Source: Haloarcula rubripromontorii
GTDB lineage: Archaea; Halobacteriota; Halobacteria; Halobacteriales; Haloarculaceae
Assembly (NCBI RefSeq): GCF_001280425.1
Contig: NZ_LIUF01000003.1
Coordinates: forward strand, 186,001 to 250,000
DNA length: 64,000 bases
Direction: 5' to 3'
Of the stretch, positions 15,654 through 20,204 are shown piece after piece. Made by a program: the position numbers and the translations under genes. Every line of letters starts with the position of its first letter. The stretch's first letter is position 1. The notes under the pieces are model-generated. The model was not told the origin of the DNA. It made no database searches and was given only the letters and a program-made list of their open reading frames with translations.

Positions 15654-16451
15654 ATGGACGTTTACGGACTCATCGGAAACCCGGTCGGGCACTCGCTGTC
15701 GCCGCCGATGCACGAGGCGGGCTACGAAGCACTGGGACTGGATGCACGCTACGTCACGTTCGAACCAGCGGCCGACTCTGGTGCCGACGCCATCGAAGCG
15801 GCGAAGACGCTCGGAATCGACGGCCTGAACGTCACGATTCCGTTCAAACAGGACGTGCTAGACGCCGTCGACCCCGCGCCGCTCGCAGAGCGCATCGGCG
15901 CGGTCAACACTGTCGACTTCGACGGCGGGACGCCGACGGGCTACAACACCGACGCCGTCGGCGCGGTCCGGGCGCTGGAGCACCACGGCGTGTCGCTGTC
16001 GGGCACAGCTGTCGTCGTCGGGGCCGGTGGCGCGGGCCGAGCGGTCGCGTTCGGCCTCGCCGACGAGGGGCTGTCGGTGCGGATTGCGAACCGTACCGAA
16101 TCGAAAGCCGACGCACTCGCAGACGAGGTCCCGAACGCCTCCGGCCATGGGCTCGACTCGCTTCCCGACCTGCTTGCGGACGCCGACATCCTCGTCAACT
16201 GCACCAGCGTCGGCATGGATGAAGATGCGACGCCGGTCCCCGCTGACGCGTTGCACGGCGAACTCGCGGTGCTCGATGCGGTGTACACGCCGATTGAGAC
16301 CCGCCTGCTACGGGACGCGGCAGCCGTAGGTGCAACGACCGTTGACGGCGCGTGGATGCTCCTGTATCAGGGGGTCGAAGCGTTCGAACGCTGGACTGGC
16401 GAGGACGCGCCCGTGGATAGGATGAACAGCCAGTTGCGCGAACGCCTGTAG
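15654..16451 (+). CDS. aroE: Shikimate dehydrogenase
   Basis: NADPH-dependent reduction of 3-dehydroshikimate to shikimate. The 265-residue protein has the substrate-binding motif [16 protein letters not shown] at residues 7-22, NVTIPFKQ with the catalytic lysine near residue 65, and the nucleotide-binding [14 protein letters not shown] start it at MDVYGLIGN; 12 residues upstream are non-conserved. It is transcribed away from the exchanger. Other aromatic-pathway genes in this window (aroK, chorismate mutase) lie about 34 kb away, so the pathway is dispersed. Confidence 0.95.
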
Positions 16452-16501: not shown

Positions 16502-17101
16502 ATGGGTCTGCTTCAGAAATTGAAATCCGCCCTCGGGCTTGACGGGACTGGGTCAGCCACGTCGGGAACGAACCGCGACGTGGACGTGACCGTCGAGCGA
16601 GAGCCCTCTACTGAAGACGAAGACGCTGTGAAGGGGACGAACACCGCCGCAACTACCGAGACCCACACATCCGATACTGCGGACGGGGCCGGGACCGAAT
16701 CAGGGGATGGGAGTGGAACAGCCACGCAGGCAGACGAGTCGGAGACTGCAGCGTCACCGACCACCGTCGACGGCGAATCAGAATCAGTGACCGATGATTC
16801 TACCACGGAGTCCGAGCCAGAAACAGCGGTCGACGACGACGCTGGCGACTCGGCACCCACCGATGATGAGGAACCAGCCGAGGCTGCTGATGGGGACGCG
16901 GCTGAGACCGATGACGGGGAAAGTACCGCCCCGGTGACGGAGATCAAAGGTATCGGTCCCGCCTACGCTGATCGGCTCGCCGGTATCGGCATCGAGACTG
17001 TCGGCGAACTGGCCACTGCTGACGCAGCGGCAATCGCCGCGGACACCGACCTCTCAGAGAGCCGCGTTTCGGGCTGGATCGAGCGGGCCGAAGACTTCTG
17101 A
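16502..17101 (+). CDS. Helix-hairpin-helix protein with amphipathic N-terminus and acidic linker
   Basis: A 199-residue three-part protein. Residues 1-14 (MGLLQKLKSALGLD) form an amphipathic helix of the kind that binds membranes peripherally. Residues 15-140 are a low-complexity Asp/Glu/Ser/Thr-rich linker that should be disordered. Residues about 143-199 form a helix-hairpin-helix/SAM-like domain with EIKGIGPAYADRLAGIGI, resembling the pentad-repeat HhH domains in RNA polymerase alpha, helicases and nucleases. No catalytic domain is present. It precedes pabB by 70 bases and may be independent. The function is unknown; a DNA- or protein-tethering role is an inference. Confidence 0.8.
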   Translation: MGLLQKLKSALGLDGTGSATSGTNRDVDVTVEREPSTEDEDAVKGTNTAATTETHTSDTADGAGTESGDGSGTATQADESETAASPTTVDGESESVTDDSTTESEPETAVDDDAGDSAPTDDEEPAEAADGDAAETDDGESTAPVTEIKGIGPAYADRLAGIGIETVGELATADAAAIAADTDLSESRVSGWIERAEDF

Positions 17102-17170: not shown

Positions 17171-18640
17171 ATGCCAACGGTCGAAACCGACCGGACTACG
17201 GTCACCGATCTCGCAGCCGACGCGCCCGCAGAGGCGCGCGTCCCTGTCGAGGTTCGAGTGGACGTTGCTGACCCGTTTCTCGCCTATCGCCGGGCGCGCG
17301 ACGAAACTGGTGGCGTGTATCTGGCGACGACTGGGGGCCAGTCGGGATGGGGCTACTTCGGGACCGCTCCGGCGGACTTCCGCGAGGTCGACCCCAGAGC
17401 GGGTGGGGCCTTCGCTGCACTGACCGAGTTCCTCGATGGCGAGGAACTGGTCCGCGGTGACTGTGACGTGCCGTATCCCTGTGGAGCCGTTGGCTGGCTC
17501 TCCTACGATGTGGCGCGGGAACTGGAGTCACTGCCCGACAGCGCCGACGCCGACCGCGCGCTCCCGAACCTACAGGTAGCTCGCTACGACCGCTTCGCCG
17601 CCTGGGAGGAACCTCGCGGTGAGCCGGTGACGTTGCGCGTGACGGCCTGTCCGCGGGTCGGTGACTTCGAGACGCCAGCACTGGCCTACGAGTTCGGCAA
17701 ACAGCACGCGCTGGACCTGGCTCGGGCGGCCGCACAGGGCGACCCTGCTGTCGGGGAGCCGCCGGTCGAGACCGACGAAGCGACCTTCGAGAGCGACTGC
17801 ACGCGCGAGTCATTTGCTGACCGGGTCCGAACGGTCAAGCAGTACATCCGCGACGGCGACACGTTTCAGGCGAATGTCTCCCAGCGCCTCCGTGCCCCCG
17901 CTGCGGTCCATCCGGTCGAGGCCTTCGACGCGCTTCGGAGCGGGAACCCCGCCCCGTACTCGGCCCTGCTCGAGTTCCCCGGCGTCGACCTCGTCAGCGC
18001 CAGTCCGGAACTGCTCTTGCACCGCGATGGCGACCGAATCGAGACCGAACCGATTGCTGGCACCCGGCCACGGGGCGAGACGCGCGAGGCCGACGACCGC
18101 CTGGAGACGGACCTGCTGGACGACGAGAAGGAACGGGCCGAACACGCGATGCTCGTCGATCTGGAGCGCAACGACCTCGGAAAAGTAAGCAAATTCGGCA
18201 GCGTCGAGGTGTCGGACTACCGCCGCGTCGACCGCTACTCCGAAGTGATGCACCTCGTCTCGGTCGTCGAGGGGCGACTCCGCGACGGCGCGACTCTGCA
18301 GGACGCCATCGCGGCGGTGTTCCCCGGTGGCACTATCACCGGCGCGCCCAAGCCACGGACGATGGAGATAATCGACGAGGTCGAGGCCACGCGGCGGGGA
18401 CCCTACACGGGTTCTATCGGTCTATTCGGCTTCGACGGTCGGGCGACGCTGAACATCGTCATCCGGACTTTAGTCCGCTACGCCGAGGAGTACCACCTTC
18501 GTGTCGGTGCCGGCGTGGTTCACGATTCAGACCCGGACAGCGAGTATCAGGAGACGCTGGACAAGGGCCGCGCGCTCGTCAACGCCGTCGACGAGGCGCT
18601 CGGGAAGCGCGTCGACCTAGCGATGGAGGACGAGCAATGA
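17171..18640 (+). CDS. pabB: Aminodeoxychorismate/anthranilate synthase component I
   Basis: A 489-residue chorismate-binding enzyme. The C-terminal catalytic domain has [18 protein letters not shown], the [20 protein letters not shown] block and [19 protein letters not shown], all intact. It is the first gene of a three-gene coupled operon with a glutaminase and a class IV PLP lyase, which argues for p-aminobenzoate synthesis. However the PIAGT motif carries alanine where bacterial PabB has a nucleophilic lysine (PIKGT), a trait of anthranilate synthase TrpE, while GGTITGAPK is more PabB-like. The name is therefore favoured by context, not certain. Confidence 0.78.
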
Positions 18641-19347
18641 GCGGCCATCGTGGCGGCAGTGACTCGACGGCTGACTCGCTGGCGCCGACCGTGTTGGTCG
18701 TCGACAACTACGATTCCTTCGCGTACAACCTCGTCCAGTACGTCGGCGAAGTGGTCCTCCGCCTCGGCGGGAGTGAAGGTGACGTCATCGTCCGGCGCAA
18801 CGACGCCATCGACATCGAAGACATCCGAGAGATGGACCCCGACGGTATCGTCGTCTCGCCGGGGCCGGGGACGCCCGAAGAGGCGGGCGTCTCGATGCCG
18901 ATATTCGAGGAGCTGGAATACCCCACACTGGGGGTCTGTCTCGGACACCAGGCGCTGTGTGCGGCCAACGGCGCGCCCGTCGGCCACGCCGAAGCGGTCG
19001 TCCACGGCAAGTCTTCGTCGGTTACCCACGACAGCACAGGGGTGTTCGAAGACATCCCGGACCCGTTCGACGTCGGCCGGTACCACTCGCTTGCGGTCGA
19101 CCGCGAGGCCCTCCCTGATGCGCTGACTGAGACAGCGTACACCGTCAGCGACGACGCTGGGACCACTGTGGCCCCCGATTCAGTCGCCACTGCTACCGTC
19201 GACGGCACGGACGAGTCGCAGGTCGTCATGGGCGTCCGCCACAGTGACCGCCCGCACATCGGCGTCCAGTTCCATCCCGAAAGCATCCTGACCGACCACG
19301 GCAAGACCATGATCGAGAACTTCTGCCTGCTATGCAATACCACGTAA
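18637..19347 (+). CDS. pabA: Glutamine amidotransferase, component II
   Basis: Class I glutamine amidotransferase of 236 residues that supplies ammonia to the component I enzyme. The [10 protein letters not shown] start, [12 protein letters not shown], the nucleophile elbow [10 protein letters not shown] with its catalytic cysteine, and the FHPESILT histidine-glutamate pair are all present. An extra 25-residue acidic N-terminal segment precedes the domain. The start overlaps the pabB stop by 4 bases and the stop overlaps pabC by 16 bases, so expression is tightly coupled. Confidence 0.9.
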
Positions 19348-20204
19348 ACGGGGCGCTCGTCCCCGAAGACGAGGCAACGGTGTCAGTGCGCGACCGCGGG
19401 TTCATGTACGGCGACGCGGCGTTCGAAACGCTCCGGGCCTACGGCGGCGAGCCGTTCCAGTGGAACGCCCACCGCGAGCGCCTCCAGCGGACGGCTGAGA
19501 CGCTGGGCTTCGCCGACGCCGTGCCTGATGACCTCCGAGAGCGTGTGGACGAGACGCTCGCGGCCAACGACCTCGACGAGGCCTACGTCCGACTGTCTGT
19601 CACGCGGGGTGTCCAGCCCGGAAAGCTTACTCCGGGACAGGATGTCGACCCCACTGTCATCGTCATCTGCAAGGGACTGCAGCGTGGCGGACTCAACGGC
19701 AAGCGCGTCTGGGACGGACCGGCGTCGGTCCAGACGGTCCGGACCCGGCGGATTCCCGGCGCGGCCGTCCCGGCGGACGCGAAGACGCATAACTACCTCA
19801 ACGGGATTCTCGGCAGACTCGAACTCCGGAAAGCCGCCGCTGGCGGCGAACCCGCCGACGAGTGTCTCATCCGGGACACCGACGGCAATCTGGCCGAAGG
19901 GGCGACGAGCAACCTCTTTTTCGTCACGGACAACGGCCTCCGGACCCCGAGTACGGATCTCGACCTGTTGCCGGGGGTCACCCGCGACGTGGTGCTGGAC
20001 ATCGCCCGCGGCGAGGACTTCCCAGTCGAGACCGGCCACTACTCGCTCGATGCGCTGCGCGACGCCGACGAGGCGTTTCTCACGAACTCGACGTGGGAGA
20101 TCCGCCCCATTGCGACCGTCGACGGCATCTCCGTTGGGAGCGGGCCGATGACGAAACTCCTTCAGCGGCTGTTCGACGAGCGAATCGAGGAGCGACATTA
20201 CTGA
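19332..20204 (+). CDS. pabC: Class IV PLP enzyme, aminodeoxychorismate lyase / branched-chain aminotransferase family
   Basis: A 290-residue fold-type IV PLP enzyme. The probable PLP lysine is in DAKTHNYLNGILG, followed by the phosphate-binding EGATSNLFFV. The DRGFMYGDAAFETLR start is typical. The family includes aminodeoxychorismate lyase, branched-chain aminotransferase and D-amino-acid aminotransferase, which are hard to separate by eye. The 16-base overlap with pabA favours release of pyruvate from aminodeoxychorismate to give p-aminobenzoate. Confidence 0.82.
   Translation: MQYHVNGALVPEDEATVSVRDRGFMYGDAAFETLRAYGGEPFQWNAHRERLQRTAETLGFADAVPDDLRERVDETLAANDLDEAYVRLSVTRGVQPGKLTPGQDVDPTVIVICKGLQRGGLNGKRVWDGPASVQTVRTRRIPGAAVPADAKTHNYLNGILGRLELRKAAAGGEPADECLIRDTDGNLAEGATSNLFFVTDNGLRTPSTDLDLLPGVTRDVVLDIARGEDFPVETGHYSLDALRDADEAFLTNSTWEIRPIATVDGISVGSGPMTKLLQRLFDERIEERHY

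Follow-up and report, generated by a model that had tools for sequence, protein, structure and literature searches.

A 199-residue protein of Haloarcula, beginning MGLLQKLKSALGLDG and encoded in the window (the whole stretch of DNA analysed, 64,000 nucleotides in length), is a real and widespread haloarchaeal protein whose plan is of a familiar type, in a combination that is new. Judged by its sequence, the protein appears to carry three conserved sites and not two ends with a plain linker: a short N-terminal helix, a segment at residues 25–48, and a C-terminal HhH domain. We favour, at a probability of roughly 40%, the reading that it is a peripheral membrane protein which holds nucleic acid at the membrane, acting as a flexible mooring line. 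According to this model, the N-terminal helix would be inserted at the cytoplasmic side of the membrane, and segment 25–48, adjoining the membrane, would dock a partner; the acidic linker would give reach and let the C-terminal domain move freely in the cytoplasm, where the (HhH)2 hairpins would weakly grip DNA (or RNA) by its sugar-phosphate backbone, so that the chromosome would be loosely moored to the membrane. The gene, the parts of its product and the neighbouring genes are as follows.

15654..16451, forward strand: aroE (shikimate dehydrogenase), immediately upstream (models NF001319 and TIGR00507 above cut-off; synteny; start codon assigned in this analysis)
16502..17101, forward strand: open reading frame of the HhH linker protein (ATG start, 199 aa, Haloarcula)
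16502..16540, forward strand: N-terminal helix MGLLQKLKSALGL, residues 1–13, SepF-MTS-like (conservation; AlphaFold2 helix 3–10)
16574..16645, forward strand: conserved segment RDVDVTVEREPSTEDEDAVKGTNT, residues 25–48, probable docking site (dN/dS 0.017; VxVE-type core in 63/72 rows)
16646..16921, forward strand: variable acidic disordered linker, residues 49–140 (composition, dN/dS, pLDDT)
16931..17098, forward strand: C-terminal (HhH)2-type domain, HHH_5, residues 144–199 (Pfam, AlphaFold2, structural alignment)
17171..18640, forward strand: pabB-type aminodeoxychorismate synthase component I, directly downstream (TIGR01824 above cut-off; synteny)
18637..19347, forward strand: glutamine amidotransferase pabA/trpG (TIGR00566 above cut-off)
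19332..20204, forward strand: pabC-like class IV aminotransferase/aminodeoxychorismate lyase (listed matches all below curated cut-offs)

The original prediction had read the protein as a tether without an enzyme domain. This is partly supported: both ends are conserved, the N-terminal helix is SepF-MTS-like, and domain-model searches (including Pfam) found no enzyme domain in the 199 residues. What was overlooked is segment 25–48, together with the aroE–pabB context of the gene and the presence of a related HhH domain on PHA synthase.

The best named full-length relatives are from Haloarcula, with an identity of up to 84%. When the single protein served as the query, a match at E 1e-6 was obtained in 379 of the 391 genomes in the class, a count that includes other HhH proteins; a profile built from 22 members was matched at E 1e-8 by 78 of 80 genomes (sampled at one or two per genus; 80 regions were fetched and their frames read), other HhH proteins again being among the matches. 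Reading the frames identified the orthologue in 72 of these 80 genomes, representing 67 of 71 genera, and these constitute the 72 rows to which the counts below refer; therein, the window protein represents genome G055 (L052, a copy that was also read), and L123 and L125–L131, which are not orthologues, were left out. Both the helix and the HhH domain are kept in all 72 orthologues. In six genomes (G001, G007, G021, G217, G285 and G382), tblastn and pattern searches found no such gene within ~1.5 kb of aroE. These genomes are 1.9–2.3 Mb in size, with G217, G285 and G382 being only 88–92% complete, and their profile matches elsewhere, among the matches listed, concern the HhH domain only, in frames of 352–1378 codons, the match of G001 not being among those listed. 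In G345, the gene start only is present, cut by the contig end (L141), and in G071 the locus ends ~0.6 kb after aroE without such a frame. Hence, the protein is probably not universal in haloarchaea and, given its absence beside aroE in six genomes, its function would be dispensable.

In a sample of the phylum reaching outside the class and including it, 65 of 294 genomes matched the profile at E 1e-10. Among these, 51 belong to the same order or closer, although these matches were not each checked as an HhH linker protein, and that of G021 covers the HhH domain only. The other 14, all from family f13, match with the C-terminal part only (model positions 114–198) in frames of 752–808 codons, which are probably topoisomerase I. 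Since the f13 matches are restricted to HhH, the genomes sampled show the complete architecture in haloarchaea only. As a side observation, one HhH match (G036:C7:63195-63362) is located within an unusually long open frame of 9006 codons.

The original prediction of a long linker rich in Asp, Glu, Ser and Thr is borne out, but the linker is not uniform. Residues 14–143 (130 aa) contain 61% D/E/S/T and 31% D/E with three K/R, and residues 49–140 contain 63% D/E/S/T and no K/R; in the AlphaFold2 model, which was computed from 17 sequences (the window protein and related loci), residues 11–140 are devoid of secondary structure with block mean pLDDT values of 45–64, dropping to 45–49 for residues 51–140. 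Among 14 Haloarcula genes, residues 49–140 evolve with a dN/dS of 0.38 and 15% gapped cells. Ahead of them, set off from the N-terminal helix by a short spacer (residues 14–24), segment 25–48 (VTVERE...AVKGT) forms an island that is the most constrained part of the protein, with a dN/dS of 0.017 in the same 14 genes, compared with 0.105 for the HhH domain, 0.20 for the spacer and 0.32 for the N-terminal helix, the last value saying little because pS itself is very low there (0.065). In all five blocks, pN is lower than pS (0.003 versus 0.142 in segment 25–48, 0.047 versus 0.346 in the HhH domain); segment 25–48 and the HhH domain are under purifying selection. By loose patterns, a VxVE-type core (of segment 25–48) is matched in 63/72 rows, an AVKG-type element in 34/72 and an AxSTxS-type element in 31/72. 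These short motifs suggest that the linker is more than a spacer and likely holds docking sites; segment 25–48 is probably one of these, where a partner would be bound at a third site near the membrane.

Two further observations concern this part of the gene. Synonymous change is low at its 5' end (16502–16540, orthologues L005–L017), with a pS of 0.065 for codons 1–13 and 0.142 for codons 25–48 versus 0.40 in the linker, which may reflect an additional constraint acting around the start codon at the DNA or RNA level. Furthermore, a compact version of the protein exists in genome G128 (L124:3821-4189), comprising ~104 residues with ~30 between helix and HhH domain, versus 130 in the Haloarcula protein; its gene, which aroE and pabB flank, is situated on the opposite strand.

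The C-terminal HhH domain that had been originally proposed was readily recovered: Pfam HHH_5 (PF14520) matches at residues 145–198 with an E-value of 3.5e-10 and 40.6 bits against a gathering cut-off of 27, HHH_5 is matched at E <= 0.01 in 22/22 members scanned, and the AlphaFold2 block means of pLDDT amount to 88–92. Foldseek returned no match at E <= 0.001 for the model, most of which is disordered. A Z-scored structural alignment of the C-terminal domain yielded 50 rows at Z 8.3–9.5, a range that is middling for a small helical domain according to the tool's own note. These include DNA-bound MsDpo4 (6jum; Z 9.5, rmsd 2.6, 64 aligned), the N-terminal domain of archaeal RadA (3etl; Z 9.4, rmsd 1.3, 58 aligned) and NusA AR2 with SuhB (6ib8; Z 8.7, rmsd 1.6, 57 aligned), which lie within 1 Z of each other and are counted as tied. 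As modelled, the domain thus has the fold of the RadA N-terminal, DinB and NusA AR2 domains. Domains with this fold serve DNA binding in some cases and protein binding in other cases; with RadA, MsDpo4 and NusA AR2 being tied, the fold leaves undecided whether nucleic acid or protein is bound. The likeness is limited to the domain: in contrast to RadA/Rad51, with which it shares the N-terminal HhH fold, the protein is without a RecA-type ATPase core, and in contrast to NusA it has the AR2 fold without the other NusA domains. No match to a RecA core or to other NusA domains was found in it, and two RadA models match residues 144–197 and 145–196 only.

The residues of the domain speak in both directions. 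With 11 D/E and four K/R, it is acidic, the median net charge over 71 rows being −5, as haloarchaeal proteins generally are acidic. Its only basic residues, K149, R158, R188 and R195, occupy columns that carry K/R in ~78–93% of the 72 rows, while position 187 is Lys in ~62% of rows and Ser in the window protein. K149 lies ahead of the first GIG hairpin and, by the AlphaFold2 helix limits, R188 sits at position three of the helix that follows the second hairpin, a region near where HhH domains contact the DNA backbone. Tyr155 is found in 71/72 rows and Trp192 in 72/72; RadA-type hairpins carry small or basic residues where the Tyr stands here. From the conserved basic residues near the hairpins, we infer that the HhH domain may bind DNA or RNA. 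The strongest competitor, a real if tentative possibility, is a membrane-anchored protein scaffold, in which the helix sits on the membrane and both segment 25–48 and the HhH domain bind proteins, e.g., of transcription, the ribosome or division, in place of nucleic acid. The constraint on segment 25–48, exceeding that on the HhH domain (0.017 versus 0.105), points to protein docking, and the acidity of the HhH domain, the fold shared with SuhB-bound NusA AR2, and the conserved Tyr155 and Trp192 would all suit such a scaffold. Against this stand the conservation of the four basic residues that the domain possesses, two of them at hairpins, and the nine of 72 rows in which helix and HhH domain are kept but the VxVE-type core is unmatched.

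At the other end of the protein, the 72 rows give the helix consensus M-[GA]-[LI]-L-x-K-[LI]-K-S-L-L-G-L, with Gly12 in ~97% and Lys8 in ~89%. The helix is matched by one pattern in 67/72 rows, by the other in 62/72 and by either in 70/72; in the remaining two (L104, MGLLDTISSLWKSLVGG; L122, MALLDKLKSWLGM), it is visible by eye, and it is therefore recognisable in every row; a lack of helix conservation, which would have refuted the original prediction at the sequence level, is thus not observed. The orthologue start codons were picked by a script that favours the helix, hence the position of the Met is not independent evidence, whereas the residues after it are. The amphipathicity originally ascribed to this helix is, in the single sequence, only suggestive: residues 1–11 have a hydrophobic moment of 0.52 (shuffle p 0.07 for the window sequence alone), and the mean family profile, taken over the 61/72 rows with Gly12, gives p 0.049 with a peak at 100–110 degrees. 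Extending the test to 13 residues, past Gly12, weakens it (p 0.31 for the window protein; p <= 0.05 in only 10 of 71 rows, L124 being left aside), the better significance of the 11-residue test going with its stopping before Gly12. Among 49 crude gene models in the window, the moment ranks fourth, and two of them, including the 199-aa protein, combine a moment >= 0.52, a hydrophobicity >= 0.3, a charge >= +1 and no proline. It is the conservation across the class that marks the helix as more than chance. AlphaFold2 places a helix at residues 3–10, with a block mean pLDDT of 61 for the first ten residues. Sought as DNA in ten genomes with two patterns, the helix was hit only at the gene of the HhH protein, once each in five and six genomes, respectively; these patterns miss other spellings, including that of the own orthologue in 4/10 genomes, and looser helices elsewhere would escape them.

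A short N-terminal helix of comparable appearance is found in archaeal SepF. The targeting sequence MGIMSKILGGGG of Haloferax volcanii SepF alone is reported to send GFP to mid-cell rings (PMC8187382), while an N-terminal tag on SepF gave a diffuse signal. In the genome studied here, SepF begins MGLMSKILG (L147; start codon inferred), and the start M-G-[LI]-[LM]-x-K-[IL] is common to SepF and the helix of the HhH protein. In contrast to SepF, the HhH protein gives no match to the SepF domain PF04472, and the single SepF match of the genome, at C2:257055, is separate from it; we regard the likeness as a resemblance of short peptides and not as homology. Over the 72 rows, the hydrophobic positions of the helix swap among L/I/V/F/M, and this exchange, in combination with a hydrophobic face flanked by Lys, would be as expected for lipid contact and not for a specific pocket. 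Sequence, conservation and the likeness to the SepF targeting helix together suggest that the N-terminal helix binds the membrane. The alternative that it serves protein binding or self-association, making the protein a soluble adaptor and not a membrane-anchored one, is improbable: short conserved helices also act as docking peptides, and the weak single-sequence amphipathicity by shuffling and the low pLDDT of the helix would fit, but the hydrophobic face with its Lys flanks and L/I/V/F/M exchange, as well as the likeness to the SepF MTS, argue for the membrane.

The genomic neighbourhood is largely preserved. Over 71 loci (L052–L122), aroE immediately precedes the gene on the same strand in 64 and pabB immediately follows it in 52, with both in 46; otherwise, pabC follows in 10/71, and neither pabB nor pabC was found downstream in 8/71. 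The median gaps of 58.5 and 67 nt are operon-like. In Haloferax volcanii, HVO_0708-0710 correspond to pabC, pabA and pabB (PMC8305020) and HVO_0712 to shikimate dehydrogenase (PMC11834397); based on this gene order, the flanked HVO_0711 is probably the orthologue. A full-text literature search found no paper on HVO_0711. This arrangement could speak for a helper that assists the chorismate/para-aminobenzoate enzymes from the membrane, e.g., by tethering AroE or PabB. Yet the same loci weaken that case, with pabC in the place of pabB in ten and neither of the two found in eight; co-transcription alone accounts for the gene order, the six genomes in which the search beside aroE did not recover the protein do carry aroE, and an HhH domain is not known to play a part in these pathways. 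Such a helper is, thus, decidedly unlikely. Virtually no weight is left for a chance reading frame or an artefact of GC-rich acidic sequence, for which an overlapping 144-aa frame on the reverse strand might be adduced, since pN < pS in all five blocks and orthologues throughout the class refute it.

Several known systems share parts of the plan. ComEA combines a membrane anchor, a flexible linker and an HhH DNA receptor; in contrast to the protein described here, its anchor is transmembrane and its DNA receptor faces outward. In Bacillus Noc, the N-terminal amphipathic helix has a weak affinity for the membrane and attaches only once nucleoprotein complexes have assembled (PMC4331003). Like B. 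subtilis Noc, as portrayed there, the HhH protein has a short conserved N-terminal amphipathic helix (here by sequence only), a variable spacer and a candidate DNA-binding domain; unlike Noc, it has a long acidic linker and a further conserved segment. No ParB domain was matched in the 22 members (Pfam, E 0.01); therefore, neither a CTP switch nor specific DNA binding of the NBS type is indicated. By analogy, the protein may work like Noc, but it is not a Noc. In Caulobacter, PhaH binds the PHB granule by its N-terminus and DNA by its C-terminal HhH, according to the review PMC13052382. Both proteins would couple an N-terminal surface-binding part, predicted in our case, to a C-terminal HhH domain; PhaH, compared by description only, is described as a new phasin type; Pfam gave no phasin match for the HhH protein.

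A closer relative of the HhH domain resides on the haloarchaeal PHA synthase. PhaC at L002:430-1860 (contig C1 of the same genome, ~949992; TIGR01836 above cut-off) bears the best other match in the genome, with E 1.6e-8 for the single query and 2.3e-20 for the profile. It likewise has an acidic linker followed by a C-terminal HhH, but a synthase domain replaces the N-terminal helix, and its hairpin reads VSGIG without a preceding Lys; no match to the Class III synthase domain was found in the HhH protein. For H. mediterranei PhaC, the extension has been noted and its function called unknown, with a pointer to PhaH, in which a domain of this sort is proposed as a granule–nucleoid link (PMC12028471). 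By analogy only, these cases support the notion that HhH domains of this kind may moor a surface to DNA. A role at PHA granules was considered and is judged unlikely: six genomes (G006, G010, G026, G066, G087 and G231) that have the protein lack the additional match at E 1e-8 expected from an HhH-bearing PhaC, so that the protein seems not to be tied to PHA. Independently, ribosomal protein L32e of the same genome (L004, C2:675269; assigned by likeness to a PDB chain) has an HhH-like N-terminal extension, and the top PDB sequence matches of the HhH protein are Haloarcula L32e chains at a non-significant E of 0.16.

Taken together, the mooring model is favoured because 72 genomes, spanning 67 genera, retain both helix and HhH domain, with the gene order preserved in most; because of the SepF MTS likeness, the RadA and MsDpo4 fold matches and the conserved basic residues; and because the same plan recurs in Noc and PhaH. 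It is disfavoured by the acidic HhH domain, the hairpin Tyr in 71/72 rows and the nearly equally good NusA AR2 match, as well as by the single-sequence amphipathicity not reaching significance, the linker of ~30 residues in L124 and the six genomes without the gene beside aroE.

A more far-reaching version, which we consider rather unlikely, is that the protein is the general chromosome–membrane linker of haloarchaea, i.e., an archaeal counterpart of Noc made from unrelated parts. Here, the SepF-like helix would sit on the membrane, the HhH domain would hold DNA without sequence preference and segment 25–48 would dock a division or segregation protein, thereby coupling nucleoid position to membrane events in polyploid cells. 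A narrow literature search, including part of the review PMC7617429, found no chromosome–membrane link described in haloarchaea, and the searches made found no study of this widespread and strongly constrained gene. If true, the proposal would supply haloarchaea with a physical link between chromosome and membrane.
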